Below, piece after piece: positions 10,057 to 63,000 of a stretch of 64,000 nt of DNA. A model generated the notes under the pieces. That model was given only the letters and a program-made list of their open reading frames with translations, had not been told where the DNA came from and ran no database searches. Position 1 is the first letter of the stretch. Each line of letters starts with the position of its first letter. A program made the position numbers and the translations under genes. This stretch comes from Ptychodera flava (Eukaryota > Hemichordata > Enteropneusta > Ptychoderidae), in the NCBI RefSeq assembly GCF_041260155.1, contig NC_091935.1, positions 6,129,501-6,193,500 of the forward strand, given 5' to 3'.

Positions 10057-10458
10057 AATATTGAAGGCATTGATTTTTTACATAGTACAGTCTGAGTGAA
10101 AGTGACCTGAGTCTGTATAGTTTCAATGCTTATTCAGTGTGATCAGTCAGTGTGGAAGACGTAACGGCTTTTTGGTTTACTGCAGGTCAATTTCCAAAGC
10201 TGGTCATACCAAGGAGACTTGCCAGGGATTGCACACAGACAACAAAGTACACAATTATTGATTTGTAAAGGTGCTTTTATTTCTAACTTCTGTTTTCCTC
10301 ACTCTGTGGCAAGGGTAGCTCCAACATGGGTCATGAAATAGGTCACCCCTGTGGGGGACAAAAACAACCTTGGGTTAAAACTATTCCAAGTCATTCAAAC
10401 CATGATGCACATTCTAGTTTCTTAAATAAAACGATATCAGATTATCTTTTCCCAAGGA

Positions 10459-15135: not shown

Positions 15136-15765
15136 CTGTAGCAAATAAAATCGGGCCACAGAGTCAATGATGCATGTAACGTATATAAATTATCAACACA
15201 GTAACAGTGCTGATCAATAAAGTACGTTTGTGAAATATAAGTATAGCAATCAGGGGCCAGAAAGTCCATTTATTAATTGGTGGTCCCCTGAACAGCAGCA
15301 GTGTTTTCTCTGCATTTTTACTGAAAAGGGCAATGGCTGCCCAATTCATCAAAATCAGGGGGCAGACTTGACATTATAAGGGAGAGAAACAACAGCAAAT
15401 TCACAGGTCACTGTCAGGATGATTTAAATTTTTAATGACAAGGGACAAAATCTTAATGATTAAGCCATCCATGAGTCCAAAAGAGAACCTCTGCCTTCTT
15501 GAGGCGAACATTCAGAGACACAACTACATCTTTACTACAAAAAACAGTATTTGAAATGGCTCATTTTAATGAAGATGTATGACTCTACTCGCTTGTTTTT
15601 TTTCAATACCAACTTGTTTTTTTTCAGTAGATGCTTGATTGAACCACATCTGTTCACGAATTAAAATAACATTTCACTGTGTAGGATGAATGCTGTATTT
15701 GACAATTAGAGATCTAGAAATCAAATAGGCAGACCCCAACTTGTGACCACAAATATACCAGGAAG

Positions 15766-29389: not shown

Positions 29390-29695
29390 CTGCCTACTAT
29401 ACAAACATACACACATACATCTAATATACATACACACATACAGACACCACAAACTTCAGCTTATACAATAACCTCACATTGGTATACAAATTGTGAGCTA
29501 AAAATGCCCTCAAAATACAAATATGCAAATTTCACCATGATTTGAACAAACTTAAGTGAGGTCTCCCCAAGTGAACTGCATATCAAATTTCAAAGCAATC
29601 TGACTTACCGTTTCAGAGAAGGCAATTGTTGATGGACGACGACGACGGGAAATCAGCTTAGTTGATAAGCGCCGTTTCGCTGACAGCGGAGCTAA
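29390..29695. repeat. Repeat remnant ending in GAGCTAAAA
   Basis: A CA-rich simple stretch is followed by TGTGAGCTAAAAATG near 29488. The end, GCGGAGCTAAAA, falls immediately before the start of the duplicated DNAJC21 block. The GAGCTAAAA terminus matches the end of the 25085-26512 element, so this may be a relic of that family lying at the duplication edge. Confidence 0.5.
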
Positions 29696-30101
29696 AATAT
29701 ATTGAAGGTATTGATTCTCTTCGTGTTGTAAGCGTGGGAGTGAAGGTGACCTCAGTCTGTACAGTTTCAATGCTTGTTCTGCGTGATCAGTCAGTGTGGA
29801 AGATGTGACGGCTTTTTGGTTTACTGCTGGTCAATTTACAAAGCTGGTCATACCAAGGAGACTTGCAAGGGATTGCACACAGACAACAAAGTACACATTT
29901 ATTGATTTGTAAAGGTGCTTTTATTTCTAACTTCTGTTTTCCTCACTCTGTGACAAGGGTCATCCAACATGGGTCATGAAATAGGTCACCCCTGTGGGGG
30001 ACAAAAACAACCTTGGTTTAAAACTATTCCAAGTCATTCAAACCCAGATGCACATTCTTGTTTCTTAAGTGAAAAGATATCAGTTTATCTTTTCCCAAGG
30101 A

Positions 30102-32344
30102 TCACCTTTTCTTGCCTTTCTTTTTACTCTTAGTTTCACTTGTTAAAATCCTTGATGAGCCTGGTTCAACGCGCACAGCATGCCCCGTTTTCTTGATGTG
30201 GTCAAAAAGTTTATTTCTGGATTGAAACTCTCCCTTGCAGACGTTACAAACAGTTGATGATTGGTCACTTGGTCCACCCTGTGCCAAAATGAAAATTAAT
30301 AAACAGTTTAACAAGGGTAAAAAGGTGCCACTTTCTACCATGAAAGTTTACTGTGTTAGGTTCTATAAAAGCTTAAACATTGTGCTTTTATTTTATCAGA
30401 AATTGTCGTGTAGATGAAGGTGTCTCCGCTTTTTTTGAAATCACAATGGTTGTTTTATTTGACTTGTGTGAAATAGAAAATAAATAATGGACATAGATCA
30501 GTTTCAACACTCAGAAACCTCACTCAGGGATATAAGTCTGTGCAAGCAAAACATCATGATGGTACCAGGGTTCAAAGAGTTCACAGTAACCATGACAGAC
30601 ATACAATGGAAGTGCTGAGGAATTGAGCCATTTCACCCACACCATCTGTGCGACCTATATAGTTTAATTTATATTTTGTTGGCTCCAGCTCACCATTGAA
30701 CATTCTTCACTACATGGGAAAGCAACCTCACAACTGCATTTTTTCTGAGGGGCCATGTAATTGTGTGACTGGCATGCACTGGACAAAATATGTTTGTTTA
30801 GATGAAACATTGAACCTCTTTCCCTTCATCAAACTTGAAAATGTACATGGTGGTTTTGTCATATAGAGTAAAATGGCCTTGATCAGGACCAGAAGTCTTC
30901 ATTAAGCAATCCATGTGATCATCAAAGTTACGGACTGCTTGTCAGTGTAAAGGTCAATCAGTGCTAATAACTAAACCTAAAACTGCTTGCTATAAATGAA
31001 ATTTTACATTCAGTAATAAGCTCTTTTTGGTATTTATATAAAACCAAATATGAGCTAAAAACTCTTACTTTAAACTTGTAAATGAAGCCCACTACAAGTA
31101 AATCACTCACAAACATTCTTCCCTTGAATTATCAAATTTCATATTTAGAGTACATGCAGAAATTTGAGACTGCCCCTGACTGCATTAGGGTCATCATGGA
31201 GCCTGCCCTCACTTTCATTTCAGTTGAAAGGCCAGGCTGTAAATCAAGCCATTACTCACCACTGAGGTATGCTTCACACACAGTATTTATGACGTTGTAC
31301 ACACCCATAGTATACATACCTGTGACCCATGCATTGATTGCAATTGTGTGTTGGTTTTCCCTCCAGGACCTTTATCCATTCCTTTCTTCGACTTCGATTT
31401 TGACGATCTGTGTATTTCAAAGGAAGTACTCGATCAAAACACAATAGAGGAAAACTCAAATGTACATTGAAATGAAAATGTTGACATACTGAGATGATAT
31501 AACTTTGTATATCAGTGTTTCACTGTCAAGTATATAAGTGCCTTGAATTTACAATTATTTAACATGTAACTAAAAACACTTACCAAATCATAATTAGATT
31601 CTAAAATTTAGTTTCTAATTGCATTTTCTACCAAAGTAATTATTTACACTAGGGTAAATTTATAGATTTCATAAATAGACACTTTTTTCAATAATTTTGA
31701 TCTGAATTAATGTATTGTAAAAGCGCAAATTATCCAGTGAGATTTAATTTTGCCATTTTTCCCTGACAGTATAAATCTGATAAAATTAAATCTACATGAC
31801 TAGAGTAAATAACAATGGATTCTATTGTTTTATTGGCAAAGTCATTGAATTTCAATCCACATGAAATGTCTCAAATATCATAATGGTCACTGAATTCTTA
31901 CTTTATTTCCTTAACTTCCTCTTGTGACAAGCTTTTGCCATCAGCTTTGTTTTCAGCCTCTGTATCTTGTGACAGCTTTGCATCTTTTGAGAAACGTTCT
32001 GACAGATCAGAAACATCATCATTATCACCGTCAGTAGTATCATTCGCCTTTGTAGTTTCACTTTCTGTCTTTTCCTCCTGTTGGAAAGTGAGTAGGTTTA
32101 ATGATAGATTTTTTTAAAACATTGCAGAAAAAAAAAAATCAAACGCAAGTTCAATCTCAAACGACAGACATGAGAAACTTGAAACTTAAAAATACTGAAA
32201 GAATACTACGGTTTTAAGACAAAGGTCCCAAAACTTTTGTAATTGGTAGACAGACCATGGGAAATTTGTTACTTCTGTTTATGTTCACTCATTTGGAATG
32301 CCCTATTCAAAATATATGTCAACTGGAGAAAAAAATATTTACGC

Positions 32345-32379
<35 letters not shown>

Positions 32380-35300
32380 TGTTTGTGTGTATAAAGGCAT
32401 ATCACAATCTGTTGCAATTTCTTACAATGACAAAAAACAGCAAGAAGTTCACTAAACAAACGGTTTGTGAACACAGGTACTTTAACTTTTCCTTGTTTAG
32501 AAAGAGTTTGAGAGGTATGGTGAAGGAATACTTTTAAGCGCAATGAAGAAATGTTTTAATCGGTGCACAGATGTGGTCTTGACACAAAATAATGTGACTT
32601 ACCAAAATTTCATCGTACATGTCGTCCAACTGCTGCTGTTGTCTCCGTCTTTTCTTCTGTTTTTTAGAAAGTCTGTAACACAACATCAAACAACAAACTA
32701 TGGCTTTTCTGGATAAGTGGGACTATTTCAGTGTTGCAATTTTAAGTTCTGTGGATGGGAGGGACATAGCATTTCATGAGACCGATGTGAGAATGACTGA
32801 AATATCACATACAAAGTTATCCTCTTGTATTCCGGAAGCTGTGTACCAAATGGGAGTCACAAAACAGAAAGACCTATTGCCAGTAATTTTCAAGAGCAAT
32901 AAACTTCTCCAACATCCCGTGATAATTTTCCAAGTATGAAACCCTTCAAACAAAGTAATGAAATTGAAAGGAAGACAAATCTAACTTTCACGCTGGATCA
33001 CTAGCAGAAATGAAAGCTACAAAAGTAACTACTTGCATGAAAAGCCAACATTTCAAGAATTAGCACATTCTTAGTTCAAATGTCTTACTTAGATTTTGGT
33101 TTGTCTGAAGTGTCTTCTAACAAATCCTGGTATGTTTCATGATCCTCTTCAAGGATATCCTCCAGGTCAACCTCATCATCTTCCTCTGGAACATCTTCTC
33201 TGATATCTTCATTACTTCCATCATCATTTTCTGCTGAATCATCCTGCTTCATCTGCTCTCTCAAGATGGCGATGTTCTTTTTATGCTTCTTGGACCGTTC
33301 ATGGTTTGCAAATCTGTGTATGAGATGATTTCTTACAGTCAATATTGTTTTCAAACATCATCTGCATATTTTCCTGTTGTTAATGCAAACTTTCAGTAAA
33401 GTGAAGTGAAGGGCAAAGTCATTTACTTGCATAAGGAAAGCTTGTTCAAATCACTGACATATCACACGGTATCTGCAGGTACAGTGTCATCAAAATGACA
33501 GAGGCAATTTTTACCTGGAGGTGAAGCATCACATGGCTGAAGCTACATGTATGTTAGGAATCATTTTGTCATAAACCTACACATTCCATTTATCGATATG
33601 TTGCGGTATAAATTAATTTTTGCATAAGTTCACAATGACAGAAGTTTCTAACTCTGTGAGCTGCACCCACTGTAAACATTTTGGTAGTCTTATGGGTATA
33701 AACGATATTTTGATAATTTTTATTGTGTTTGACTTCTTTGCTTGGTCATTCATAGATTCTGCACATTTCTATCTTCAGAAATTCTAGTGTTTAGATCTGC
33801 ACATAGGGTTTCAGAACACAATTCAGAGCTGTGTAGTGAGACACAAGAGGCAGCACTTTTCTCTATAACCTTGGTTTATATGAATATTCATCATTATGGC
33901 ATGCATAGTGTATAATATTTGAAAATCACCTGGATTGTAACATAAATGTAGACAGTGTTGTCTGGCAGTGTTACAAACAGACAGACCTATGGCTTGTGTC
34001 TCGTTATGAAGTGTTCACATTCATACCATACTATTGTGGAAACAATGCAACCTCAATGTTTACACTAACAGTATGATTCACATAGGTACAACTTACAGAG
34101 TCACAAAATTAGGTCACCTCTGAGCAAGCAAGCAACATATTAGCAAGTTAAAATTTGATAGACATAGTTTTGTATTGTGCTAACTGATACACAGTCCACA
34201 GTACATCAAAAGTCATTATTACAAATGTTTCACATGGAATACCAATGCTATGATATTTTGAAATTTTAAGTGATTCACACTATACCATCACTCTAGTTAC
34301 ACACAGCATTTGTATGCTTAAAGGAACATGGAAGGCTTGATGTAGAGATCTTGAGATGTCCTTGGGATGAGACGTGTATCACAAGCAAATACATGACTTC
34401 ATATCAAGCATGGAACCAGGATTGATATAATTTGACAAGCGCGACCTTTGACATCTTAAAGTTCCCATAAATCCACTGTGCCACTTATTGAAAATGCCAC
34501 AGATTATGTATTTTAATATCAACATAGGGAATATTTGAACATACGCTTTGTCATTTGTAAATGTTTTGTTACAAGCCACACAGTACAAGTCTGTATAGAG
34601 ATCTTCGTCACTGCCCTCCACTTCATCACCTGAAAATTAAACAAAGACGCACATCAATCATTCATCGACACTTCTACAAGCGTAAAATTATGAAGCAAAT
34701 CTTTTTCCTACTCTAAATTCAGTTTACTTTGTTCTTTACATCAATAAAACATTGATAAAGAAACTGTACAGTCCCCATTGGACACCGTAAAAACAAATGG
34801 TTTTTATATTTAGCCATAGAGGGCAGTGTCCTCTAACTCACTCGATCTGCTTTGTTCCTCTGCTCCAAACTCTTCATCTAGGTGAGCTTCCAAATGTGAC
34901 AAATCTCTTTCCAACTCTGCAAATGATGCCCATTCTTGTTCGACAAAGTTTTCTAGCGTTCTAAAACAAGAAAAGACAACATGAAAAAGTTTATGTCATA
35001 AAACAACCTGGCGATATCTCAACACATGGCATATACAAAGACTGAATACAGTGTACAGGATCTAGGAACTAACACAAATGGTATGTTCACATCACTTTCA
35101 GCAATTGTACTTACTTTAATTTTTCAAGTTTCTCTTTTTCTCGTTTTTCTTCAAATTTTTTCTGTCTTTCTTCAGCTTTCAACTTCTGCAGCATCTGAAT
35201 AAAAATTGGGCCACGAGTCAATGGCACATGTCATATTTAAATTATCAACACAGAATCAGTGCTGTTCAATAAAGTACATTTGTGAAATATAAGCACAGTG

Positions 35301-38300
35301 ATCAGGGGCGAGCAAATCCACTTGTTAATTGGTGGTCCTCTGAGCGTATCGAATGTATCATCCAGTTGACCTGCAATATCATTTACAAATCCTTAATATA
35401 TCCTTCATTGTAAAAGAGCATCATGAATGAGTCACCAGGCTGGCTGGATTCATTCCACTCCTGATTGTTACATTCCAAACACTTACTTGATACTGTTGGA
35501 CTCTTTTATCTCGTTTCCTTACAAATGCTGTCAGCTCCTGGAAAAACAATAAGTGCAATGACATAAATGTCACACAAAATTATTCACTTTTAAAAGATGA
35601 TTTAATTTTTGATTCTTACAAGGGACAAAATCTTAATGATCAAGCTATCTGTGTGTCCAAAAAGGAACCTCACATTTCACTGTGTAGGATGAATGCTGTA
35701 TTTGACACTTAGAGATCTAGAAATCAAACTGGCAGACCCCAACTTGTGACCACAAGTACACTAAGATGTATGGTCATATGAAAATGGTCAATTGTGGAAA
35801 GTTTAACCTACCCTTATTTGTTCATTGTAACTTTTCTTCGCAGAGTCCCTCAATTTTTTATTTTCTTTTTCCATCAACTTTGATATCCTCCTGTTCTCTG
35901 CTTCTCTTGTGTCGTATTTCTCCGTCCAGACAAACGTTTTCGGTGTCAAATAGTTCAACCAATAGTCATAGAATGGCTTCACAACCTGCAGCCATTAAGA
36001 AATTATACAGCCATGTTTAGTGAATGTGGGTGTATGGTTAGGAATAAGTGCAACATTTCTCATCAGTCTCATATGACTGCTTTGAGGATTAACATCAATA
36101 CTTAACCCTTTCACCACTATGGTTTGGCCCAAACCCATTGTTATCAATGGTGATTGTGGACCTGTTTACGGGGAATTGGGGGTGAACAGGTTTAAGAAAC
36201 CTTACTATCAATCATTTCTGTTGGCAATACTTACTGGTTCCTACGTGACTGAATACTTCTAGTACTATCACACAATGTCAGGAAAGGATATAGCCACCGA
36301 CAGTTGGGATTTAAATAAGTTAAATATATCAACTGTCTTGCAACACCAAATGATTTTAGGTATTATTTTATTCAACATGAAAATGATTTTTGACAATATT
36401 TTGTTCAGAGAAACTTTGGTAGCAAATGTAGGCATAAGATTAGCAAAACCTTGGCAAATTTCAAAGATTTCTATCATCGATTCTTAAAATTTCATCAAAG
36501 CTTGGTTCTCTTGATTCTGTTGAATACTAAAAGATGAGAACAGAGTGCACACAACTTCATATCACAAAACCTGGAGAAATATTGTAACGTGATGTAAAAC
36601 ATCTCTTCCTAACCTCGTCATAAGAACTGTGGGCATTTCCAAACTCTGGGATCATAAAATCTGCAGCTCCTCCAGCACTGAGATCGATAAACTTCATATC
36701 TTCTTCTGAAATGGTCTGGAACAGCTTTCTGTAAACATTGTAAAAACCCTGCCCAGAAGTAAAAAAAAAGCAAAATACGAGAACTTAAATGTCATGGAAG
36801 GATTCCTATATTAATCCCAGACTTGTGACAGTACTGATCGATGCAACGGTGTCATCACACAGATACAAACTGACTACTCATGGAGTACATGTGTCGTCAA
36901 ACATACATATATGAACAAATGATAATGATACATATGTACATACATTTACAAACACCTTTTGTACATACAAGTAGACAGATGCAATTTCACAAATACATAT
37001 GAATATGCATAAAGGCATATACCTAACAGATATGGGTGCACAAAGAACCCAAATACTTCTTCTTACCATATTGTAGGAGACATAAACCTAACACTGGGAG
37101 AAAATAATTTCTTTACCTTTTTATTATCTTCATATCCTGAGTAGACCGTTGGTCTGAAATACGGCATCACATTGATGAAGTCATCTTGGTAATTGTCTAA
37201 GCCTGTAAACAAATCAATTACAAATTTGACGGATGTCTCCAATCAAAGAAAATAAATCCTATATTTTATGGAAAAAAAAATTTGTACTGAATGTCTTCGT
37301 TGTTTTTCAGAAAAGAAGAATCCTATCTTTCAACATTGATATAAAGTATGATTGTGTTTTAATCTTTATTGGTTGAAATGGAGCGGTACATTTCTGGCCA
37401 TGCACTTAAAAATAGTTCACATAGTGCCATTGTGTCATGACATTTACATATGCTGATAGAGAGTATGTAGAGAGTGTTATCAGTGTCAATGAAAGTGAAC
37501 AGCTGAGTTTGTGAAGTTTACCTCCTTTCAACAATACTTCGCGGTGTTTATCATACCACGCTCTCTCCTGTGGATCACTGAGTACATCATATGCTTTCTG
37601 CACGAGTCGAAACTTTTCTGTGGCTTCTTCTTCATTGTCTCTGTTTTTGTCTGAAACCGATATGCAGGAGTTCAACAACTATTGAGATACATCTACAAGC
37701 ATTTTTTTGGCATGAATTAAAGTGTGCAACCAGAGTTAGTGATCCGCAACTTCATGGTATAATCAATGTGTGCTTCGTATTTAAATGCCTTTGATGCTTT
37801 GAGTAACTGAAGTTTCAAACATGCCAAGTCAGACCAACTCTAGTCATTGCACTCTTGATGAAAAATGGAAGTCAGAGCTTGAGGTGGGCTTCCAAAGACT
37901 GCAATCAAAATCCTATATTTGACATTTCGATCCTTCACAGAGGAACTTCAACAGGAATGAACAAGGTGCATGGAAACTGCTCTCAAACTTAGAGCAACCA
38001 TAGACAGTAGAAAACATTTCTCTACTGTCCATCGCACAACACGATGTTTCACACACCTTTTATATTCCTGGTGAAGGTCCTTTGTAAAAGGCCCAAATGT
38101 GGAATAAACGATTTTTATTTTATCCTCTGGAAACAGACTCTTGTTTCATTATCAAATCTATAGCTGATATCCTGTGACAAATTATCATAACATCTACCTT
38201 TAATTTGGATAAATTCAAGTGTCTAGCAAGGTGTAGCTCACGGTTTTCCCGGCATATTTGTGTGGAACCTGAACAAGCAACTACAGTGTCAGTGAAAAGG

Positions 38301-41300
38301 GGAAAACAGCAATTTTCACACCATCATCAAACACTCTACATATTCACAGTACAATAATGATAATGGCGTGAGAAAGCTACATATTAATCAGAATTAAACA
38401 AATCTCCGGATTTTATATACTGTATGGTGCAAGCGATCGAGTAACTGTCTCGTTGAATGGTCAAATCGGAAAGAACGGGTTAGGATTTCTGGTATTTGTC
38501 TCTACAACCATGCTACCTCCTAGCTGCAAAATTGTAGCTCTACGGTGAGGTGGTCGGTGAGTTTTGGTTTTTGCGACCTCGCTCACCAGTAGAGCTACAA
38601 TGCCGAAGGCCCTGAAGCATACAAAACAAGTCATCGTTGATGACACAGTCCCCACTTGTTAATGGGTACTTTGATTACAGGTCCTCAGAGAGGATAGAGT
38701 CCTCTTCATTAGGTCTGTGATAAAAATACTTTTGAATAAATTCGCTTGATACATGTCTGAGTTGTAGTTCAGGACATGAAAAAATCGTAATAAAATGGCC
38801 ACATGGCGGCCATATTGGATCGTATCACAAAACAAATCGATGTGCATATGTATGACATAGGTCAATGTCCTTGTACCAAGTTTGAATAAAATCCGTTGAG
38901 ATATGCCTGAGTTATGGCTCTGTACATGAAAAAATCGTAACAAAATGGCCGCACGGCAGCCATATTGGATCGTATCACATGAAAAATTGACGTGCATATC
39001 TATGACATTGGTCAATGTCCTTGTACCAACTTTGAATAAAATCAGTTGAAACATGCCTGAGTAATGGCTCTGTACATGAAAAAATCGTAATAAAATGGCC
39101 GCCTGGCGGCCATATTGAATCGTATCACAAAATAAATCGATGTGAATATGTATGACATAGGTCAATGTCCTTGTACAAAGTTTGAATAAAATCGGTTGAG
39201 ATATGCCTGAATTATGGCTCTGTACATGAAAAAATCGTAACAAAATGGCCGCCTGGCGGCCATATTGGATCGTATCACAAAACAAATTGATGTGCATATC
39301 TATGACATTGGTCAATGTCCTTGTACCAGCTTTGAATAAAATCAGTTGAAACATGTCTGAGTTATGGCTCTGTACATGAAAAAATCATAATAAAATGGCC
39401 GCCTGGCAGCCATATTGGATCGTATCAAAAAACAAATTGACGTGCATCTGTATGACATATGAAGTAATCCTTGTACCAAGTTTGAATGAAATCGCTCCAG
39501 GCATCTCTGAGATATCTGCGTGAACGGACGGACGCACGCACGGACGGACGGACGCACGCACGCACGCACACACGCACGGACATGACCAAACCTATAAGTC
39601 CCCCCGGACGGTGTCCGTGGGGACTAATAAGCACGCTGCACATGGCACGGCATTTTGATGTAAAATCCCATATATTTACTGCATTTGGTCATACCGATTC
39701 AGGGTTTTACATCACTTTTAACTTTTGAGAGTCCCTGGGACTCCTGGTGTTAGAAAATGGGAGTCCTACATCAAAATATGGGGGTCCCAATTTATTTCAC
39801 AAAAATGTTTTATAGTTTATCAATGCCATGGTCTTCACTGTGTTCAATTAGTATTAATTTGCATACACAGAGACAACAAGGTTCCATATTGTACATGGAG
39901 GGGTAACTATTGTGCAACACATGCACACAACTATAGGGCATATTCAACTGACTCTGTATAGTTTGAACCGCCTGTATAACTATAATGAAGAGTTGAAGAC
40001 AAAAACACATTTCACTAACCTTTTTATCGATTAATTTTGGTGTTTGACCCAACTTACATTAGTTTAATTCACGTACGCGTGTGTAACTATCTGTGGCTTA
40101 TCGAGTCACGGACTCGTACTACCATACATACTAGTCAATCCGTTCGCCAAGTTTGATCACATTTTTTGACAAGCACGCCACAAAATCCGCCACAAAATGG
40201 AAAGAAACCACTAAGTATCGAGAAAAAAGTTTCATGTCCGGTTTATTTCAGTTAAAAAAATGCGTAACACGTAGGAAATGTCTCGCAATGTCAACAGTTC
40301 AGAACAACTACATTTCATTTACAAACCGGGTCGACTGTTATGGCCGTCTCGCTTCAGGACGGCCGGAGGTCAAATATCAAGAGTTTAAAGGGGCTTTTTG
40401 GCAGTCAAACGCTTGAAAATTCACAAAATACACTTCAATTTAACCGAATCCTTACAAATTTCTCAATCTTGCATGTTTTGGACTTCGAAAACCTTAACCT
40501 CGGGTTCCATGTCGAGAGTTAGGCATCACACAGTGCCGCCATCTTGGCCGCCGATACGTTCGAAGTTCACTATCGCGATCGATTTGGTCACCAAATCGCG
40601 TCATTTTTCCAAAAAATATTCTCAAAAAAACTGTAAAATCTATCATTTCTATCACCCAGAGGGCAGTAGCTTGGCATAATATAGTTGTCTTCCGTGTCTA
40701 CGGCATGGTAAAGCTTTCAAAACGTACGTACGTGTTTCGTTCAATGCACTGTGGCCGTATCCGCGTACGGGTGAAACTGCAGACCTGATTAAATATTCAT
40801 GAAAACCGCTGACCTCTTTTGAAGAAAGTTCGCATAAATTACTGGAATTTTCGATTGTTAGGCTGCATGATGTCATTATTTTAGTCCTTATATGGTACTA
40901 AACTGGGTTCAAAGGGTCAGGAATACCCTCCTTCTGGCTGAGTTCGGCAATGCATAGCTAAGTTAGGCATAAGCATAGAACGCAATCACTGTCGGTTTAT
41001 ATACCGACGTGGCGCTGAGAGCGAGAATGCCGTGTCGGTTTATAAACCGACGCGGCACTTTAAGGGTTAAAGTACGGGGTCGGTAAGGTTTACTGGGATG
41101 TGTTTTACGTGTTCAGCAGCTTCGCAAGGTGTACACCAGCAACAGATATTGCTGCGTCCCAAGGGACGCGTGGTTTAGTTTTTGAGGGGTCCTGCGTCCG
41201 GTTTTATGCGTAAAGGACGCAGAAATGCGCGTCATGTAAAACCCTGCGATTTATCACTACTGACGACTAAACAGTAGACTGCTCTAACCTTGTCGTTTAT

Positions 41301-41856
41301 GGGGTTTGGTATTTGTTCAAATACGTCGATCGCGTTCCAAAAACATTTCTTGGAGCCGCCATTACCAACTTCCGGTAATGGCAGCTCCCAGAATTTCGCT
41401 CAATGTTTATGGAACGCGATCGACGTGTTCGCGCTAATACTAAACCCCATAAACGACAAGGTTAGTGTAGTATAGTGTATAGTCACCAGTAGTGATAAAT
41501 CGGTACGACCAAATGCAGTTAATATGCGGGATTTTACATGAAAATGCCGCGCCATGTGTGGCGCGCCTATTTTGTATGCTACAGGGCCTTCGGCATTAGT
41601 ATAGCTGTACTGGTGAGCGATGTCGCAAAAACCAAAACTCACCGACCGCCTCACCGTAGAGCTACAATTTTGCAGCTAGCTACCTCCATGCTTCAACTAA
41701 GTACATGGCAGGTCAATGAATGTGACGATAACTGAAAATGAAATGATAGATGAATGTACCTGGATGCCATTTCAACGCTAATTTTCGATAGGACTTCTTA
41801 AGATCGTTATCGCCTGCGTCAAAGGGCACACCAAGAACTTCGTAATGACACTGCAT
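30102..41856 (-). CDS. DNAJC21: DNAJC21, J-domain and zinc-finger ribosome biogenesis factor
   Basis: Fourteen exons join in phase to 563 codons, close to the human 531: 41856-41760, 37650-37522, 37202-37117, 36748-36614, 35985-35812, 35537-35487, 35194-35115, 34960-34842, 34629-34545, 33313-33089, 32672-32603, 32077-31902, 31407-31320 and 30278-30102. The protein starts [20 protein letters not shown]. The J domain has its HPD with the Asp codon split by intron 1, then [36 protein letters not shown] region, a charged coiled coil, a U1-type C2H2 finger (C-x2-C...H-x5-H), acidic tracts, [10 protein letters not shown] and a second C2H2 finger near the C-terminus follow. Family knowledge: the homologue of yeast Jjj1 works with Hsp70 to release export factors from cytoplasmic pre-60S particles. 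I chose the internal ATG because the upstream in-frame Met lacks family similarity. AATAAA signals on this strand lie at 29898-29903 and 29920-29925. Confidence 0.95.
32341..32392. repeat. GT microsatellite
   Basis: This (GT)n run is expanded here compared with the short GTGTGTGTGT at the same intron position in the other DNAJC21 copy (near 12614). It is a useful marker of change after the duplication. Confidence 0.9.
33656..34032. other. Insertion of about 375 bp specific to this DNAJC21 copy
   Basis: The two DNAJC21 copies align up to GTTTCTAACTCTGT and resume at GGCAATGCAACCTCAATG / AACAATGCAACCTCAATG. The intervening sequence here has no counterpart at 13890-13940. I see no inverted repeat or clear target duplication. 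It could be an insertion here or a loss there. Confidence 0.55.
36108..36198. repeat. Dispersed repeat of about 90 bp, copy 1 of 3
   Basis: The core GGTTTGGCCCAAACCCATTG is followed by TTATCAATGGTGA and GGACCTGTTTAC. The ends TTAACCCTTTCACC and GGTGAACAGGTTTAA form a short imperfect inverted repeat. Related copies lie at about 56738-56822 and 57360-57443, both in the opposite orientation. Confidence 0.75.
38625..39629. mobile_element. Helentron-like element nested in the left terminal repeat
   Basis: It interrupts the left arm of the 38521-41678 element, whose sequence resumes after it. Its ends carry AGTCCCCAC (38647) and GTGGGGACT (39617-39625). Between them are five units of 150 bp, at 38797, 38947, 39097, 39247 and 39397, each with AAAATGGCCGCCTGGCGGCC. 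An ACGG/ACGC microsatellite and a terminal GTCCCCCCGGACGGTGTCCG hairpin follow. This is the layout known from HINE/pearl-type elements. The 231-codon minus-strand frame exists only because 150 is divisible by three. Confidence 0.65.
41248..41505. repeat. Long imperfect palindrome
   Basis: CGATTTATCACTACTG at the left is mirrored by CAGTAGTGATAAATCG at the right. The inner arms CTAACCTTGTCGTTTATGGG and CGTCGATCGCGTTCCA also pair with their complements. The centre contains CCATTACC...GGTAATGG. It is part of, or an insertion in, the right side of the 9-bp-duplication element. Confidence 0.7.
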
Positions 41857-42694: not shown

Positions 42695-44161
42695 ACCTGA
42701 ACCATTTCGTAGTCACGAACCTTTAAATATACCATGGAAATACCTGACTCTACTTTTGAAGCGCAAGAACAAATATTTTTTTTCGCGGTTTTGATGTTGG
42801 TTTTGTTTTGGTTGGTGAAAATAAAATATTCAAATCACCATAGAAACTGAAGAAAGTACTGAATTCTGGCGTAAAAAGATAATTTGTGGACTTTGGAAAG
42901 ATTGTCAAATCTTAGAATTCAAAACAATGCATACCTCCAGAGTAACCCTACCTCTCTACTTCTAAATCAATCCCCACTTATTGGGTTTCACAACCGAGAC
43001 AGTCGGGTTCTTTATCTATCAATAATTTGCTGTGTAGTTTTCATCGAAATCTAAACAACAGACAAGTTGCATGCCTTATTTGGCTTTCTATGATATGAAG
43101 TTATATCATCATGAACTTTCAATTCTTAGCTTTTTCGACATCAATGCCTAATTTTCAGTAGGCCTATCTGTAATCATATCGTATATATTGAACGCGACTA
43201 GGACATCGTTTCTTTGCGCACCAAGGTCGTTATTTGAAATTTTCCCAAAGTCAAAAAACAACCACGAGTGTTTTATATGTCAACACAAATCTAATACATT
43301 TTTTTTAAAACGGCCGAATCGTATATAATTGAGCCTAGGAAATCTTTTCTTTGAGCGCAAAAGTTGTTATTTGAAATAGTTGTAACGAGAGACCAAGAAA
43401 GCATACAACCACAGTCAGTGAAGTCAAAGACTAAGCATACTTCCTACAAACTGTTTTACTCAAACAACGGCCTCGGTGAGCTGCTACAAGTAGTGGGTGA
43501 CAATTTTAATTTGACAAATCCAAGCTAAGTTGTTTAAGCTTTATTTTTAATTCGTTTCCGTTCCTCGGGCAATTACAATTTATATGGTTTCGATCGCGTT
43601 GATTGCAAGCTGTTCTTGTTAGAGTCGCTCAGTATAGGGAGTTTCGTATGTCGCAAAGACTAAAAAGAGAGAAAATTAAGTTACGGCTAAAATGGCGTCT
43701 TTTTTATCAATGAAGTAAGAATACCGAACCCTCTGAGTGAATTTGCGAACATTTATTTAGCGTCAAAGTGTATTGCATAGAAAAGCGTGCGATCAACATT
43801 CAACTTGTCAGAAAGTGAAGGTTGTCCAGTAGGGCCTACTAATAGTACTATGCGATGAAAAGCACATTGTCTCTGTCATTAGAAAAATACATAATTAACA
43901 TGAACTTTCAAAAAATTCCTCAAAAATACCTCAAACAAAGGTACATGCTTTCTCCTGCTTGGCAAACACGTTTTCATATGGCCTGGATCATACCCATTCA
44001 AAAGGTCAAATATTGTCACGGTCGATAACCTGTTCTGTTATTAATATTCAACACGACACAGAAACTGTCTCAGATGACCTACTTTTCAAAGTTCCGCAGC
44101 TGTCCATTTCGATCACGTGAATGAATTAACTCGGCGTCGCCTGAAAGGGAAACCAGGTCAC
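42000..44161. other. Intergenic stretch upstream of DNAJC21
   Basis: An ETS-like CACTTCCTG near 41961 could belong to the DNAJC21 promoter. A long CT microsatellite occupies 42553-42690. The rest is AT-rich with no recognised gene. Confidence 0.45.
42553..42690. repeat. CT microsatellite, about 138 bp
   Basis: A nearly pure (CT)n tract has a few CC or CG interruptions. All open frames over it are simple Leu/Ser or Arg/Glu repeats. Confidence 0.95.
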
Positions 44162-44168
44162 GATCTAC

Positions 44169-45605
44169 CATAGGGGGTCCAATCTCCGATGATGACGATG
44201 ATGATGATTAAATATTTAAAAATGAAGATAAATAAACATTATTTGGACTCAGTAAATTTGTTGTTATTGTTGTTGTTATTGTTGTTGTCGTTGTTGATAC
44301 TATTTGCAGAAAAGAACAAAGTATGCGCTGCAAATTTCAACACAGCCTAACTATACATGTGCGTCGCAAATTCAATACAGCCTAACTATACATGTGCGTT
44401 GCAAATTCAATACAGCCTAACTATACATGTGCGTTGCTGCCTAACTATACATGTGCGTTGCAAATTCAATACAGCCTAACATTACCCAAGGGGTGTCACT
44501 TCATTGCCACACACTTTTTTTCGATCGCCAAAAATGCACCTAGCATGCATCGAAATCGGTAAAATTCGACGTAGGGTCAAAGCACATTAGTCCTTCTCAA
44601 TAATACTCCAACATTTTTACCTCTTACCGATGAAAAGTCGAGAAATCAGCAAGTTTTTCAGCGTATCTGGACGTCTCTTACATTTCAGATTTAAAAGGCG
44701 CGGCAGTGTATTGAGTCACGTGGGCGCTTTTCAAATCGAACCAATAGCAGAGCTGAATGGACCAGCGTGAAACCCGGAGGCAACGTAAGTTTCTCACATC
44801 TTTGGAAAGAACGATCTCTTGCTGCGGGTGAACTGGAACTGTTAAAGTTACCAGAATTTCGTATGCAGACGCACGCAGACAGTGTCACCCATAGTCTTCC
44901 AAAGACGTGAGAAACTTACGTTACTGCTGGGTTTTCACGCTGGGCCCATTCGTTCAGTACGGGCTCTGACCCTACATCGAATTTTACCGCTCTCGATGCT
45001 TGCTGGGTGCATTTTGGCGAGCTCTGCTATTGGTTCGATTTGAAAAGCGCCCACGTGACTCAATACACTGCCTCGCCTTTTAAATCTGAAATGTAAGAGA
45101 CGTCCAGATACGCTGAAAAACTTGCTGATTTCTCGACTTTTCATCGGTAAGAGGTAAAAATGTTGGAGTATTATTGAGAAGGACTAATGTGCTTTGACCC
45201 TACGTCGAATTTTACCGATTTCGATGCATGCTAGGTGCATTTTTGGCGATCGAAAAAAAGTGTGTGGCAATGAAGTGACACCCCTTGGGTAATGTTAGGC
45301 TGTATTGAATTTGCAACGCACATGTATAGTTAGGCAGCAACGCACATGTATAGTTAGGCTGTATTGAATTTGCAACGCACATGTATAGTTAGGCTGTATT
45401 GAATTTGCGACGCACATGTATAGTTAGGCTGTGTTGAAATTTGCAGCGCATACTTTGTTCTTTTCTGCAAATAGTATCAACAACGACAACAACAATAACA
45501 ACAACAATAACAACAATTTACTGAGTCCAAATATATGTTTATTTATCTTCATTTTTAAATATTTAATCATCATCATCGTCATCATCGGAGATTGGACCCC
45601 CTATG
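44169..45605. mobile_element. 1.44-kb fold-back element with 7-bp target duplication
   Basis: The element starts CATAGGGGGTCCAATCTCC and ends with the reverse complement. Arms 44169-44811 and 44896-45605 are close to identical around a spacer of about 85 nt. The right arm has about 73 bp more than the left near its inner end. From the outside in, each arm has an ATG/ATC trinucleotide patch, a GTT-type repeat, a tandem block with CCTAACTATACATGTGCGTT, and a region with CACGTG, ATTGG and TTTTAAA. GATCTAC flanks it at 44162-44168 and 45606-45612. Long arms with inner tandem repeats resemble fold-back elements of the Galileo type, which also make 7-bp duplications. That kinship is inference. It lies 128 bp downstream of the ELOVL6-like stop codon. 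Confidence 0.85.
44330..44485. repeat. Tandem repeat in left fold-back arm
   Basis: About four copies of a unit near 37 bp occur, with the shared words CAAATTCAATACAGCC and TAACTATACATGTGCGTTG; one copy is shortened. A mirror set lies at about 45290-45450 in the other arm. Confidence 0.85.
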
Positions 45606-45733
45606 GATCTACATAACGAATACAAATGTTTCAGTCTTGGGTAAGTTTGTGACGGCCTAACACTGGAAACATTCTCGCGCGACGAACACAGGTCTTTGTC
45701 GCAAAAAATAAGTCTGTTGACAACGAAAATGTG

Positions 45734-46573
45734 TTAGTCCATTTTTGTGGTAATTTTCTTCGGTTTCTTCACGATGTACACTTGGAAAAAGAAATTGGCG
45801 AAGAGGACAAGGAAGCTGACGTACATGAGGGCTCCGACGCGCCACCTTGGGACGCTGATTTCGCAGTCGATACCCGCGCTGAACATCTTGTGGGCGTAGA
45901 AGTAGATGTAGGTACCTAGGACCATCTGAGTGATCTGCATAGTGGTGATAACCATCGCTATCTGCTTGGGAACTCTCACCCCAGCGGCTCGCAGAGCGTA
46001 ATAGGTGTACATAAGTGAATGCACGGTAAAATTCATGAGGGTACATAGAAAGGCAGTGCTGGCCCGCCCACTGTAACCCCAGCAGCAATAGCACATGGTA
46101 AAGATGTGGTGATACCAGTGCAGAAAGATAAGTTTGGATTTGCGGAACACCACAAAAACAGTATCACCGAGTTCAAGAAGCTTTGAGGAGGTGAAAACAA
46201 ATAACCAGAAACCGCTTATTCTCTCGGCGTCGAAGTGAACGTTGTCGCAGGCTGCCTTGTGCCAGCCACCTTCGCTCAGGATAGCCGATAACGCTGTGTA
46301 CATTCGCCAGGTACCAAGGATACTGAATATTGCTAAGGAAAGGTTCCAAATCACCAACAAGGAGCGAAATTCCTTCCGTTCACGATCTTCCATGAAGCTT
46401 CGAAGACCAAAGATGGCAATGACATACACGACCGATGCAGTGACCGCGATGGGCATTCCAGTTTCTTCCATCCATCGCACCCAGAAGTCATCGTCAAAAT
46501 TCTTCTCAAATTCAAACAACTTCGGCAGACGAACTTGTGGGTATGATGCATTTTCACTACTGGCTATTTTCAT
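45734..46573 (-). CDS. ELOVL6-like very-long-chain fatty acid elongase
   Basis: This is a single uninterrupted frame of 279 residues, typical in length for the ELOVL family. The catalytic histidine box HWYHH is at residues 152-156, preceded by KLLELGDTVFVVFRK, the conserved KxxExxDT region. Several hydrophobic membrane spans and a lysine-rich C-terminus (KKPKKITTKMD), of the kind that retains proteins in the ER, are present. The WVRWMEETG and WHKAACDN words resemble ELOVL6. The family condenses malonyl-CoA with saturated and monounsaturated acyl-CoA in the ER. Vertebrate ELOVL6 has introns while this copy has none, which fits a retrocopy ancestor or lineage-specific intron loss. No AATAAA is seen before the fold-back element; the nearest on this strand is inside its arm (45538-45543). 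Confidence 0.9.
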   Translation of the reverse strand: MKIASSENASYPQVRLPKLFEFEKNFDDDFWVRWMEETGMPIAVTASVVYVIAIFGLRSFMEDRERKEFRSLLVIWNLSLAIFSILGTWRMYTALSAILSEGGWHKAACDNVHFDAERISGFWLFVFTSSKLLELGDTVFVVFRKSKLIFLHWYHHIFTMCYCCWGYSGRASTAFLCTLMNFTVHSLMYTYYALRAAGVRVPKQIAMVITTMQITQMVLGTYIYFYAHKMFSAGIDCEISVPRWRVGALMYVSFLVLFANFFFQVYIVKKPKKITTKMD

Positions 46574-51225: not shown

Positions 51226-52050
51226 ATGGCTGTCGGATCTAAATCTCCCATCGCAACCAATATATTTGATTTCGAGAGGGACTTTGACGATGAATACTGG
51301 GTAACATGGATGCAACAGAAGGGATTTTCAATCGCTGTCGTGGCCTCTGTGGTGTACGTCGTTGTCATTTTCGGCGTCCAGGGCTGGATGAAAACGCGAG
51401 ATCGGTTTGAACTCCGTGGCGCGTTGATTGCCTGGAACGTTATCCTTGCAGTATTCAGCATCATCGGTTGCTGGAGAATGCTTATAGCTTTGATAAACAT
51501 TTTTCACCATGGAGATAGCTGGCACCAGGCAATCTGCGATGCCAATAATTACTCCAACACGACAGTCAGTGGGTTTTGGCTGTGGGCATGCACAATGTCC
51601 AAACTTCTTGAACTCGGGGACACGCTATTCGTCGTCTTAAGGAAGTCCAAGCTGATATTCTTACACTGGTATCACCATGTCGTTACACTTCTGAACGTCT
51701 GGTGGGGCTATGGTGGACGTATAAGCGTGGCATTCTTGTTCACGCTCATGAACCTCTTCATTCACGCGATCATGTACTCGTACTACGCCCTCAGAGCCGG
51801 ACATGTGAAAGTTCCCCGAGCTGGAGCCATGGTCATCACTGGGTTACAATTGTCACAGATGGGCCTTGGTGTGTGGCTTTGCTACTACGTCTATCAAGTT
51901 CAAAGCCACGGACAGAGCTGTGACGTCAGCGAATGGCAGTGGTGGGCAAGTGTCCTGATGTATATAAGCTATTTCATATTGTTTGGGAATTTCTTCTACC
52001 ATACGTACCTGAAGAAGCAGCCAAAACGGGACGGTAAGAAGAAACAATGA
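51226..52050 (+). CDS. ELOVL6-like very-long-chain fatty acid elongase
   Basis: This is a single-exon frame of 274 residues. HWYHH lies at residues 147-151, after KLLELGDTLFVVLRK (126-140). An N-terminal FDFERDFDDEYWVTWMQ, several membrane spans, a possible N-glycosylation patch (NYSNTT near 108) and a basic tail (KKQPKRDGKKKQ) are visible. It is paralogous to the gene at 45734-46573, sharing long stretches such as RKSKLIFLHWYHH and YYALRA, but is clearly diverged from it. The two are divergently oriented 4.65 kb apart. Expected role: the ER condensing enzyme of fatty-acid elongation, probably C16 to C18. The start was chosen as the first Met of the conserved frame. Candidate receptor sites lie just upstream. 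Confidence 0.92.
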   Translation: MAVGSKSPIATNIFDFERDFDDEYWVTWMQQKGFSIAVVASVVYVVVIFGVQGWMKTRDRFELRGALIAWNVILAVFSIIGCWRMLIALINIFHHGDSWHQAICDANNYSNTTVSGFWLWACTMSKLLELGDTLFVVLRKSKLIFLHWYHHVVTLLNVWWGYGGRISVAFLFTLMNLFIHAIMYSYYALRAGHVKVPRAGAMVITGLQLSQMGLGVWLCYYVYQVQSHGQSCDVSEWQWWASVLMYISYFILFGNFFYHTYLKKQPKRDGKKKQ

Positions 52051-54062: not shown

Positions 54063-57000
54063 ATGGAAAATTACGATAAGATTCGGGTTGTCGGAAGGGG
54101 AGCTTACGGGTAAGGTTTATATTAAATGTACTCTCTTCGTTGCTGGCTACCGAACCCGAGTCAAACGGGCATCCGACTGTGATCAACTGTGATCTACTGT
54201 CTATGCTGTGATCACCGGCTGAACGTGACACTCGTAGTTATAGTCGGAGTCTTGTCTTAGGGTTGTATAACAGAGTCAGAATAGTTCGTTAAATTAGTCA
54301 TAGCATATGAAAATCACTGACTTCTCTGTCGAACGAGTGAAGAGCAAGCTCACGTTATTGATCGTCTTGTGTTCATCAGATGGCCAGCATCACATCCGCA
54401 TCACAAAGTAAATATTCGTGATCCTTGGAATGTAACTGCTGTCCAGTTCTTAAACCAAATGACGTATTTCTGGCTTGCTGGAGGCTGGTGCTCACAACAT
54501 TCTTCAACAAATTTGTGTGGGGAAAGGTGGTGTTCTGGCGTGAGAAGACAACTTTTAAGAAAAATCTCTCATTTTCACCTGTAGTCTACTTCTGAAACTC
54601 CAATCTCAGTGGTCAGGGGTACACAAAGCCCCAAATACTCTACATGGCAGAGTTGTGTGCTACCATGCTAGACATGGTAAACTTGTTTTCACCAATATCT
54701 TTTGATGTTTTCTGCTAATAAAGTGGTTAGAGGAAATACATTGTACAACAGTCGAAATTCTAAAATAATTGTTTACTACTTCTGCTTGTTGCATGTATGA
54801 TTAAAACCAGGGATGTAGTTTACAGTTGGCAAAAATGAAAGTACAGGTGGTTACAAGTAGTATATGTGCTCATAAAGTTTGTGCAAAATGTCTTGATTCT
54901 TTGAAACTAAAACTAAATTTTCACAGCCGGCAAATTGTAGCTGACAGCCAGTTGTTTTTACCGGCTGCCAGCTATTTTCTACATCCCTGTCCACACAAAA
55001 CCTTCATCCCAATGATATTTTAAAGTGGGTATTGTTATCACTTACCGGTCGTATTCAGAGTGACAGTGCAGTGTGCTTGCGATTTTCAGTTTTGTGTACA
55101 AATTCAACAGCATCTATATGTAATTCTGTATTTGGTCTTATTTGCACGTGGCATAAGTTCTCTCCATGGTCAAAGAAATGCCAGGATGCAAAGAAATGCC
55201 ATGTCAATTTCAAATTTTGTTAATAAATTCCAATGTTGTTAAAGCAATAATGTGTTACTGTATAACCATCCACGTCTTTATCTGTGCTGCCCTCTTGTGT
55301 TTGTTCAACTTTTTCCAATTGTTTTTCAGTGCTCATGAAAAACAAGAAGTATATATTAATCATCATGAAATCGAAATGCTGTTGCCCACAATATTCTGTC
55401 TGAGCTGTAAAATCAAGCAATCTTGCTGGAAGAGGTCAAAAACCTTGTATCAAAGCAGAGTTGGAGCAGCCAAATAATTCACTGTAATTGGCTTCATAGA
55501 AAAAGAAAAGAATACATATGTGTCCTTGTTGTCTTGCAAAGGTGGCGCCTTCCAGTCTTGCTGCCACCAATTAGCACCCCTGCCACACAGGTTATCGTAA
55601 CGTTGCTTGGATAGTCGTTCGAGGCGGGCGCGCCGCAGGTCGCCGTTTACTTGGAAAAAGAGAAAGGTCAGACATCGATTTCAGACAAGCAGCCAGAAAG
55701 AAACAAAAGAAACAATCTGGCGTCAAATAAATGATCCTCGACTATCACAAATACCTTCAAATGTTTATTGCTCCAGTATGGCAGATTCGGCACACTTGCC
55801 CTGTATCCGCCATACTGAATTCGAACTACCTTACCCACAATTCATGCGAAGTCCAATTAAGTCAGTATGGCGGATATAGGGCAAGTGTGCGGAATCCCCA
55901 GGAAGTGAATATTGCCAAATTTCGGCACATAGTAACGTTTCTAGGCCGGCCATACTGGAGCAATAAACATTTGAAGGTATTTGTGATAGTCGAGGATCAT
56001 TTATTTGACGCCAGATTGTTTCTTTTGTTTCTTTCTGGCTGCTTGTCTGAAATCGATGTCTGACCTTTCTTTTTTTTCCAAGTAAACGGCGACCTGCGGC
56101 CGCCCGCCTCGAACGACTATCCAGCAACGTTACGATAACCTGTGCCCTGCCATAATTAAAATAAAGTTTACTGAAGATCAGCTGGGTTGGTAGGCTATGC
56201 AGTCATCAACTGGTAAATAATTGTGTGTTCAGCACATCTATTTTGGTCATTTTGCTAGTGAATCACCCATTGCGCCAAATTTGAACAAAGCTGTCAGTTG
56301 TATGTGGACAGTAGAGGTACTTGTATATTTGCAGCACTGTGAAATTTGGTATTGTCAGTTGGCTATATCTAGGATGTGATCTCTGTACCAATCTCAATTT
56401 AAGGTCTCATATTTTGCAATTCGGCAAGACCAGGTCGTGCATTTATTTAGTGACAAGGGCAAACATGGGACATGGCCATGTTGACCTATTTCCTTGACTT
56501 AAATTATTGATCCAGGCTAGGATGGGATGGGAATCAATTTCTCAGCAAATGCCCAGTCACAGCTCACACTGTAACACTTGTGGACATGAATATATGATTT
56601 CAGGACTATTATTCCAGTCAGACCAGACTAGTCTGTCACTTTTTATGGTCAAGTATGGTGAATCATGACTACTTCTTGTCTGGATTGTATTTCAGTCAAA
56701 CTTAGGGATAACACTCATCAGCTAACAGCTGATCAACAAACAACCCCAAGTCCCAGTGAACAGGTCTACATTCACCACTGATAACAATGGGTTTGGGCCA
56801 AACCATAGCGATGAAAGGTTAAATTATGAGAAGGTTATTTGTATTTGAGATGCTGATCATACAGTACACCCACAAATTACAATAATGGAATTCATGGTTG
56901 ATGTTGGAAAGGTATTTCATTTTTCATGGAGGAGCTTTCCCAATATCTACAAGAGATAAAAAAACATCTGCCATCAGTTGCATCGCACGGATAATATCTG

Positions 57001-60000: not shown

Positions 60001-63000
60001 CAGCCTTAGTGTTGAAAATCATGCGTGGTACATTTTCTCCGATTTCGGATCACTACAGTGAAGACCTTCGGAAGCTAATTCTAAGTATGCTACACTTAGA
60101 TCCAAATAAACGACCCACTATCAACCAAATCATGGCAGAACACATAGTCATCAATGCACTCCTAGATTTACATACAGACATTGGAAGAGTACCCGTCGCT
60201 GCAAAGTAAGTTTTACATGTATGTTAAGTATTAAAATCAACCATTTAACCAAAAACTTGATTTAGAAAATTATTCAAGCAAGCAGTTTCAGTTTCTTATA
60301 ATTTTGTGCCAAGTCAGACTGATAATGTGAAAATCATTCCAATTTACTTCATGTACACAACTATTCTCAATGTCTGCATGCATGAAAATGTGATGGCATT
60401 GTTCACAATATGTGAGGGCCCCCGTCAGTCATCACCTATCAAACCCAAAATATTATGGTCTGTTCCCCCAATTGAAAACCAAAGGGTCAAGCCACAAAGC
60501 ATATTTCACATCGATGAACTTGGTAATTTCAAAATCTTGACCGTTTTCAGAGTACAGAGACCATTGTCCGGGTTACCGCATGGTGTGAGACACAGAGGTG
60601 GTAGACTTCACAGTGCAAGGTCACCGTCACACAAAGGTCAGCGAATTGATCTGGTATTTAAAATATCACTAACATGAGTAGCTTATATGATCAAAAATAA
60701 TTACAGAAGTACAGTGATCAAACAGAGAACTGGGTCATTGAATCACAGTGGATGGAGGGACTGTGATTAAATATTGTGAATTTCATTTACATAGTGATCA
60801 ATATTTATCACATCTTTGAGGAAATATTTACCAAGATGAATACACAACAAAAAACTTACATGTATCGTAGTTACATAATTTAAAATTTACCATTCCAACA
60901 ATGTGTCAAATACACCCATTGGGGAAAAAATGTATCTTTCACATCTCAACTACAAACTTTCTACAAAGTGTAAATTTTAAGTGAGAGGAAAGCTCTTTAC
61001 TTGAAATTTCGAACTGTGTGAAATCTTTGGTCAATAACAATGTCCTTACTTATTTCAACAGCAATTAAGTGGTTTTAACTTAGTATTAGAAGTTGTCAAA
61101 ACCATAGATATTGATGCAGAGATGGAACCAAAGGGACCATTGAGAGAGGGAAGATCTCAGCTCTACCATACAATCATTTGTTCATAATTTTGTTCAGTGC
61201 TGCACACAGCTTAAACTTCACCAAATTATTTTTTCTCAACCCTGCATAAAGGTTCAGCTAGCAATATAGTTCTAGATTCCAGCGGAGGTCTGTCCAAGCC
61301 GCCGGCCTTGTCATCAGTGTTTTGTTGGGGCAATGGTATCAACTCACCGGTGAAACTACCTCTACCACACAGTGACACACAAGTCGTACAGGTGTCTACG
61401 GGCAGAACACAGAAAGCTGGAGTCACCAAGAATGGCAGACTTATAATATGGGAGGTGAGAATTATGTTGTGATGGGTTATTGTCTTTTACTAATAATGTC
61501 AAGGCTGTTAAACTTTCTTATCGATACAAAATTCAGCATTGTAAACTTAACTGTTTCAATCAACAAACCGTAACTAACACAGTAACCTTTTATCAAAATG
61601 ATTAATTGTTATGGCTTAGAAAATTGTTTGAAAACCTGGTAGGAACTTACTTTTTAATAGCGATGGTAATAGTAATAAAACTGCTTTTATGAACAAGTGG
61701 GCTTGCTGTTCAGTACCTACAAGATATGAACCACCATTCCCTGAACTGATAAAGCATACACAGAGGAGTGGACGATTCTACGCACCATTTCCAGCATCTT
61801 GTGGGTATATTAATCCCGACCTTTGACCCCCTTTTTCGCCAGGCATCCTCTGTCAGTAATGACACAACTCTACCCGGTGCATTTGAACAACAAATCCCGA
61901 CATTTTCTGCAAGATTCTTAGAAGGCCAGTCTGGTGTGACTATAAGACACGTATCTTGTGGAGACCTTTTCACAGCTTGCCTGACAGGTAAGAATCCAGC
62001 AACCGGTCTAGATGACCTTATACATCTATTTAATTGTAAGGATGTATGTTTCTTTATAAGTATATGGGAGGGCAAACTTTCACCTGAAGCTCAGTCCCCC
62101 AACCAGTGGTTGGAGGGACTATAAGCACAATCCCCCCAAGCAGTGGTCAGAGGGACTAAAAGCATAGTCCCTCAAACCAGTGGTTGGAGGGACTATAAGC
62201 ACAGTCCCTCCAACCAGTGGTTGGAAGGGTGTAAGCACAGTCCCCCAACCAATGGATAAATGGACTATAAGCACAGTCCCTCCAACCAGTGGTTGGAGGA
62301 CTATAAGCAAAGTCCCTCCAACCAGTGGTTGGAGGACTATAAGCAAAGTCCCTCCAACCAGTGGTTGGAGGACTATAAGCAAAGTCCCTCCAACCAGTGG
62401 TGTGGAATGGACTATAAGCACAGTCCCTCCAACCAGTGGTGTGGAATGGACTATAAGCACAGTCCCTCCAACCAGTGGTGTGGAATGGACTATAAGCACC
62501 GTCCCTCAAACCAGTGGTGTGGAATGGACTATAAGCACAGTCCCTCCAACCAGTGGTGTGGAATGGACTATAAGCACAGTTCCTCCAACCAGTGGTGTGG
62601 AATGGACTATAAGCACCGTCCCTCCAACCAGTGGTGTGGAATGGACTATAAGCACAGTCCCTCCAACCAGTGGTGTGGAATGGACTATAAGCACCGTCCC
62701 TCAAACCAGTGGTGTGGAATGGACTATAAGCACAGTCCCTCCAACCAGTGGTGTGGAATGGACTATAAGCACAGTCCCTCCAACCAGTGGTGTGGAATGG
62801 ACTATAAGCACCGTCCCTCAAACCAGTGGTGTGGAATGGACTATAAGCACAGTCCCTCCAACCAGTGGTGTGGAATGGACTATAAGCACAGTCCCTCCAA
62901 CCAGTGGTGTGGAATGGACTATAAGCACCGTCCCTCAAACCAGTGGTGTGGAATGGACTATAAGCACAGTCCCTCCAACCAGTGGTGTGGAATGGACTAT

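Follow-up and report, generated by a model that had tools for sequence, protein, structure and literature searches.

A 1.4-kb fold-back element beside an ELO-family reading frame in Ptychodera flava, probably a non-autonomous DNA transposon with layered arms

We identified an element of 1,437 bp (44169-45605) in a window of 64,000 nucleotides of Ptychodera flava DNA, the whole stretch that was analyzed. Long inverted repeats make up most of its length, and it lies between direct copies of the heptamer GATCTAC. Very probably, it is a non-autonomous fold-back DNA transposon whose transposase is encoded elsewhere and in which one outer arm was recently copied onto the other. The features of the element and its surroundings, with their strands, are as follows.

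44162-44168, plus strand: left target-site duplication, GATCTAC
44169-44754, plus strand: left outer arm of 586 bp, starting with CATAGGGGGTCC
44345-44485, plus strand: minisatellite-like array of the left arm, 35-bp units and one truncated 24-bp unit
44531-44583, minus strand: left copy of unit A, the GACCCTACGTCGAATTTTACC word, read outward
44690-44745, minus strand: outward cluster of ATTGG, CACGTG, and TTTTAAA in the left arm (motif match only)
44755-44807, plus strand: left inner, older arm segment, ~85% alike to its partner
44808-44896, no strand: central loop of 89 bp
44897-44951, minus strand: right inner, older arm segment
44952-45019, minus strand: 68 bp found in the right arm only, with nearly all of a diverged copy, B, of unit A
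45020-45605, minus strand: right outer arm of 586 bp
45029-45084, plus strand: outward cluster of ATTGG, CACGTG, and TTTTAAA in the right arm (motif match only)
45191-45243, plus strand: right copy of unit A
45289-45429, minus strand: mirror copy of the minisatellite-like array in the right arm
45538-45543, minus strand: AATAAA hexamer in the right arm, on the coding strand of the ELO frame (motif match only)
45606-45612, plus strand: right target-site duplication, GATCTAC
45734-46573, minus strand: neighboring ELO-family (GNS1/SUR4) open reading frame outside the element (PF01151, E 6.2e-67)

The earlier note, made from the letters of this DNA, had proposed a complete fold-back element with a target duplication, and the ends, the GATCTAC pair, and the arms support this as far as a single copy permits. 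The span proposed there (44162-45612) does hold the complete element but counts in both duplications, which lie outside the element proper. Direct matches of 7 bp at the spacing of the element occur at 10 of 62,548 positions in the window, the GATCTAC pair included, and this pair directly abuts the inverted ends. GATCTAC starts and ends with bases that can pair with each other, so the bounds could also be drawn at 44168-45606, giving ends one base longer and a 5-bp duplication, ATCTA. The 7-bp reading is favored about fourfold by hand reasoning on base matching, prior aside, since it needs one chance match and the 5-bp reading needs two. The ends and the duplication of this one copy suggest that the element has been mobile, and no second copy was found elsewhere in the 64,000-nt window. 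The observed/expected CpG ratio of the element is 1.08, against a median of 0.52 over 298 overlapping windows of the same size, 13 of which were equally high; such a value is compatible with a recent arrival, and other causes can raise CpG as well.

Aligned with each other, the outer arms gave 584 identities, 1 mismatch, and 2 gaps of 1 bp (a difference of ~0.5%), and a perfect inverted repeat of 500 bases lies within the element. The inner segments are 85.5% alike over 55 columns, and their inclusion brings the arms to 639 and 709 bp. The arms of 640-710 bp had been described as almost identical, which holds for the outer 586 bp only, because the full length takes in the older inner part. Substitutions affect 1 of 585 paired bases in the outer arms versus 4 of 52 in the inner segments (Fisher p = 0.0002), a contrast that argues for homogenization of the outer part only. 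The simplest reading, based on the four inner substitutions, would be that one outer arm was recently copied onto the other. As single-stranded DNA, the 265-bp core folds much better than shuffled versions of it (z -7.8, 0 of 200). For the complete element as RNA, the prediction, which has no shuffle control, is a single long hairpin.

Each arm contains short-unit repeats, the 35-bp array with its one truncated unit, the ~58-bp unit A, and a ~170-bp block with the motifs. The inner tandem array reported previously was confirmed in both arms, with four copies of GCCTAACTATACATGTGCGT per arm, spaced at 35, 35, and 24 and at equal positions in the two; since the positions of the units and the variant unit match, the simplest account is that the array already existed when one arm was copied from the other. 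Also confirmed were the counts of the word of about 50 bp, present once in the left arm (44531-44583, minus strand) and twice in the right arm (44963-45015 and 45191-45243). The added copy, B (44963-45020), is 88% identical to unit A. It had been said to show how the arm grew, a claim of recent growth of the right arm that is weakened by the ~12% divergence of B from its partner against 0.5% between the arms; because the former is far above the latter, copy B does not look like a recent step of growth. The homology between A and B starts within one base of one edge of the 68-bp block, which fits an insertion, and loss from the left arm is equally possible. The near-identical part of the arms stops where this block starts, and the block may have halted the arm copying.

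On this evidence, a transposase encoded elsewhere in the genome would recognize the inverted CATAGGGGGTCC ends and excise the element, if it moves by cut-and-paste with an enzyme acting in trans. The element would have been joined at a staggered cut ~0.1 kb past the stop codon of the ELO frame, producing the 7-bp duplication. Recently, one outer arm would have been copied onto the other, for example, by hairpin-primed repair or intramolecular gene conversion, the copied tract stopping close to where the arms come to differ through the 68-bp block.

Among the fold-back systems compared, the two-arm form of Galileo comes nearest in architecture, as far as the excerpted text of the Galileo papers describes it. 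Galileo, Newton, and Kepler, of the P superfamily in Drosophila, are similar to our element in having two-arm forms of ~1.5 kb with arms of ~600 bp, 7-bp duplications, and tandem repeats in some arms, and in recruiting inner sequence to lengthen the arms. GalileoN copies are given in the excerpted text of PMC2775673 as 1,541 bp with arms of 575 and 610 bp and 1,533 bp with arms of 606 and 580 bp, with 7-bp duplications, the length found in most Galileo copies; in size and arm lengths the element is near them. Their arms lengthen through tandem repeats and recruited inner sequence (PMC3573991, in excerpt). The same excerpt has the Galileo authors hold that long arms are convergent and arm length is unreliable for classification, which speaks against drawing kinship from this likeness. 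For Galileo targets, the excerpted text of PMC4168063 gives the consensus GTANTAC over six Drosophila genomes, a 15-bp palindrome in D. willistoni, and a conserved terminal 40 bp. Our comparison, by contrast, is one of architecture and of the target site of one insertion. Here, of the 6 fixed positions of GTANTAC, GATCTAC agrees with 4 whichever way it is read (counted by hand). This counts weakly in favor, at least 4 of 6 being expected by chance at ~4% in a simple binomial, yet it leaves the consensus incomplete. The 15-bp site TCACGATCTACATAA is identical to its own reverse complement at 6 of 15 positions, or 3 of 7 pairs where 1.75 are expected, and is not clearly palindromic. Kinship with Galileo had been put forward in the earlier note; the duplication length and general shape agree with it, and beyond these it finds no support here. 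With 4 of 6 consensus positions and 3 of 7 pairs, membership in Galileo is not supported from this single insertion, and no transposase was found among the frames scanned. A P-superfamily member related to Galileo and moved by a P-type transposase is, in our estimate, unlikely. Just short of an even chance is given to another cut-and-paste superfamily, for example, hAT-like, or one with 5-bp duplications if the 5-bp reading is real. The ends, starting with CATAGGGG or CCATAGGGG, and the self-consistency of the 5-bp bounds agree with this, as do two further elements in the window, at 2732-3493 (8-bp duplication) and 38520-41679 (7-bp duplication), whose different ends indicate that several transposon families are present there. 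Against it stand the lack of a transposase among the frames scanned and of a second copy in the window and, for a 5-bp superfamily, the fourfold preference for 7 bp.

Two explanations dispense with transposition. Fold-back priming at breaks is known to give inverted duplications (PMC10622511, in excerpt), and the structure could be such a product of repair, flanked by a repeat that arose by chance. We consider this highly improbable: the arms stop precisely where the 7-bp duplication lies, the layered arms (array, units A and B, and older inner segments) are unlike the product of one event, and no arm sequence turned up outside the element when it was compared with the window by BLAST at E 0.001. 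Long near-perfect palindromes are generally error-prone in assembly, so a mirrored join might be suspected. Such a join would create neither differences between the arms, which here comprise three positions and the 68-bp block in the right arm, nor GATCTAC on each of two otherwise unrelated flanks, and we find an assembly artefact scarcely credible. A non-autonomous fold-back transposon remains our preferred reading.

Other repeats were noted in the window. The 3,160-bp element at 38520-41679 has ends CTAGCTGCAAAA, 78-nt arms that are 96% complementary, and the 7-bp duplication CTACCTC. Inside this element are a 150-bp tandem array (38731-39493) and, nested, a palindrome of 256 bp (41247-41502). 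The 762-bp element at 2732-3493, with ends CACAGGTGTACG, 73-nt arms that are 99% complementary, and the 8-bp duplication AGTCTGCC, is one that we take to be hAT-like from the length of its duplication. A large palindrome spans 55586-56144, with core arms at 55655-55782 and 55949-56076 that are 99% complementary and separated by 166 nt. Further, a stretch of ~5 kb is duplicated at 10054-15291 and 29695-35343, ~20 kb apart and 82-83% identical, with conserved minus-strand frames that presumably resemble DNAJC21; the two of these frames that were scanned had no Pfam match above the cut-off. A 39-bp minisatellite of ~32 units, open in several frames, lies at 62087-63291.

We searched for relatives of the element in sequence collections and in the literature. 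No exact match in viral_contigs was found for one end word and three inner words, and phages and plasmids had no similarity to the element at E 0.001; these absences say little, because the collections, as described, are not of animal genomes. Bacterial and archaeal genomes gave one exact 19-bp match to the end, in a Balneola MAG, and otherwise short similarity at chance level. Since ~1.9 such 19-bp matches are expected by chance (a hand estimate for 257 billion bases and both strands), the Balneola match was rejected as a relative. Rfam gave 0 matches in the window at the gathering score. Literature searches with the end words and transposon terms returned nothing, and those with end and array words alone returned only off-topic titles. 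A literature search for fold-back elements in marine animals or for TU elements gave only Tetris among the matches listed. TU elements, the subject of a 1983 study, reportedly have long terminal inverted repeats in a marine animal; they have 8-bp duplications and 15-bp repeats. The element concerned in a 2004 study is said to be Kepler, a relative of Galileo. Tetris of Drosophila virilis, as described in the excerpted text of PMC4079207, is likewise non-autonomous, with flanking, tandem-repeat, and inner domains in its arms, whereas its duplications are of 8-9 bp (9-10 bp in rearranged copies) and its units of ~220 bp, against 7 (or 5) bp and 35-bp units here. Tm1 of root-knot nematodes (Mutator/Foldback; PMC3169594, in excerpt) shares the fold-back architecture, but it is put in Mutator by its title, and the likeness drawn here is by description only. 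The superfamilies in the excerpted text of PMC10045372 were of no help in placing the element.

The arms also carry promoter-like words. Outward ATTGG, CACGTG, and TTTTAAA were present in both arms, as had been noted, starting in the right arm at 45029, 45052, and 45078 and mirrored in the left. We defined a strict cluster as these three words in order with gaps of 5-60 bases, counted on both strands, and found 1 match per 2,000 shuffled arms and 8 per 200 shuffled windows; the real window has one independent place, seen twice as the arms are copies. Looser TATA-like words raised the matches to 5 among 2,000 shuffled arms and to 45 among 200 shuffled windows, and this looser cluster also occurs in the real window at 7051, outside the element. 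The shuffle figures flatter the promoter claim, because the motifs were picked after the sequence was seen. CACGTG alone was rejected as a promoter sign: 268 of 2,000 shuffled arms contain it, and its 7 occurrences in the window compare with an average of 8.8 in 200 shuffled versions; one of the seven is at 44114, in the left flank outside the element. TTTTAAA is non-canonical as a TATA box. Near its end, each arm carries one more CCAAT and one more TTTTAAA, which lie on opposite strands, and a splice-donor-like CGGTAAGA lies ~65 bp downstream of the motif cluster. A scan for bacterial promoters and terminators, irrelevant to a eukaryote, counted 5 and 2, where shuffles average 4.4 and 1.5, respectively. 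The outward promoter activity suggested by the earlier note was not demonstrated: the strict cluster is rarer in shuffles but was chosen post hoc, and its looser form also occurs elsewhere in the window. We treat the cluster as a lead, not as evidence of transcription. A bolder proposal, that the arms carry a complete outward start (CCAAT box, E-box, and TTTTAAA, spaced as in a promoter, followed by CGGTAAGA) together with AATAAA on the inward-reading strand, is in our view decidedly unlikely. If it were true, each insertion would give outward promoters to both neighbors and end incoming transcripts, and at this locus it would supply a poly(A) signal for the ELO gene and an antisense transcript against it.

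The nearest identified frame to the element is the ELO frame, which is fatty-acid-elongase-like and securely assigned to its family; 128 bp separate its stop codon from the element, the duplication included. From 44101 to 45740, the ELO coding strand has just two hexamers of the AATAAA or ATTAAA type, both in the right arm: the AATAAA listed above and an ATTAAA at 45562-45567. None lies between the stop codon and the element. Because these sole hexamers are in the right arm, the insertion may sit in, or may now define, the 3' untranslated region of the ELO gene. The element might affect this neighbor through a poly(A) signal carried by the arm, a hairpin formed upon read-through, or outward transcription. 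The window holds two uninterrupted ELO-family frames (45734-46573 and 51226-52050) in opposite orientation, with ~65% DNA identity over 587 columns. The protein of the frame at 45734-46573 had no match in solved structures at E 1e-5. Inside the element, the longest stop-to-stop frame is at most 82 aa, and 3 of its 41 listed frames of at least 30 aa, two of them spanning the loop, were compared with Pfam at E 0.1 and had no match. The window has 25 stop-to-stop frames of at least 110 aa, 4 of which were scanned in Pfam, giving two of the ELO family and two without a match above the cut-off. No transposase was found among the 3 frames scanned in the element or among these 4 of 25 scanned frames.

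Fold-back elements are able to drive chromosome inversions and perturb nearby genes. With its long inverted repeats, the 35-bp tandem array inside the arms, and GATCTAC at the inverted ends, the element described here very probably adds to the fold-back transposons, a long-known class. Its arms are layered, with an apparently freshly homogenized outer part over an older inner part and a boundary at the 68-bp length difference. Aligned across the genome, further copies would turn this pattern into a test of the way in which long inverted arms are kept identical.
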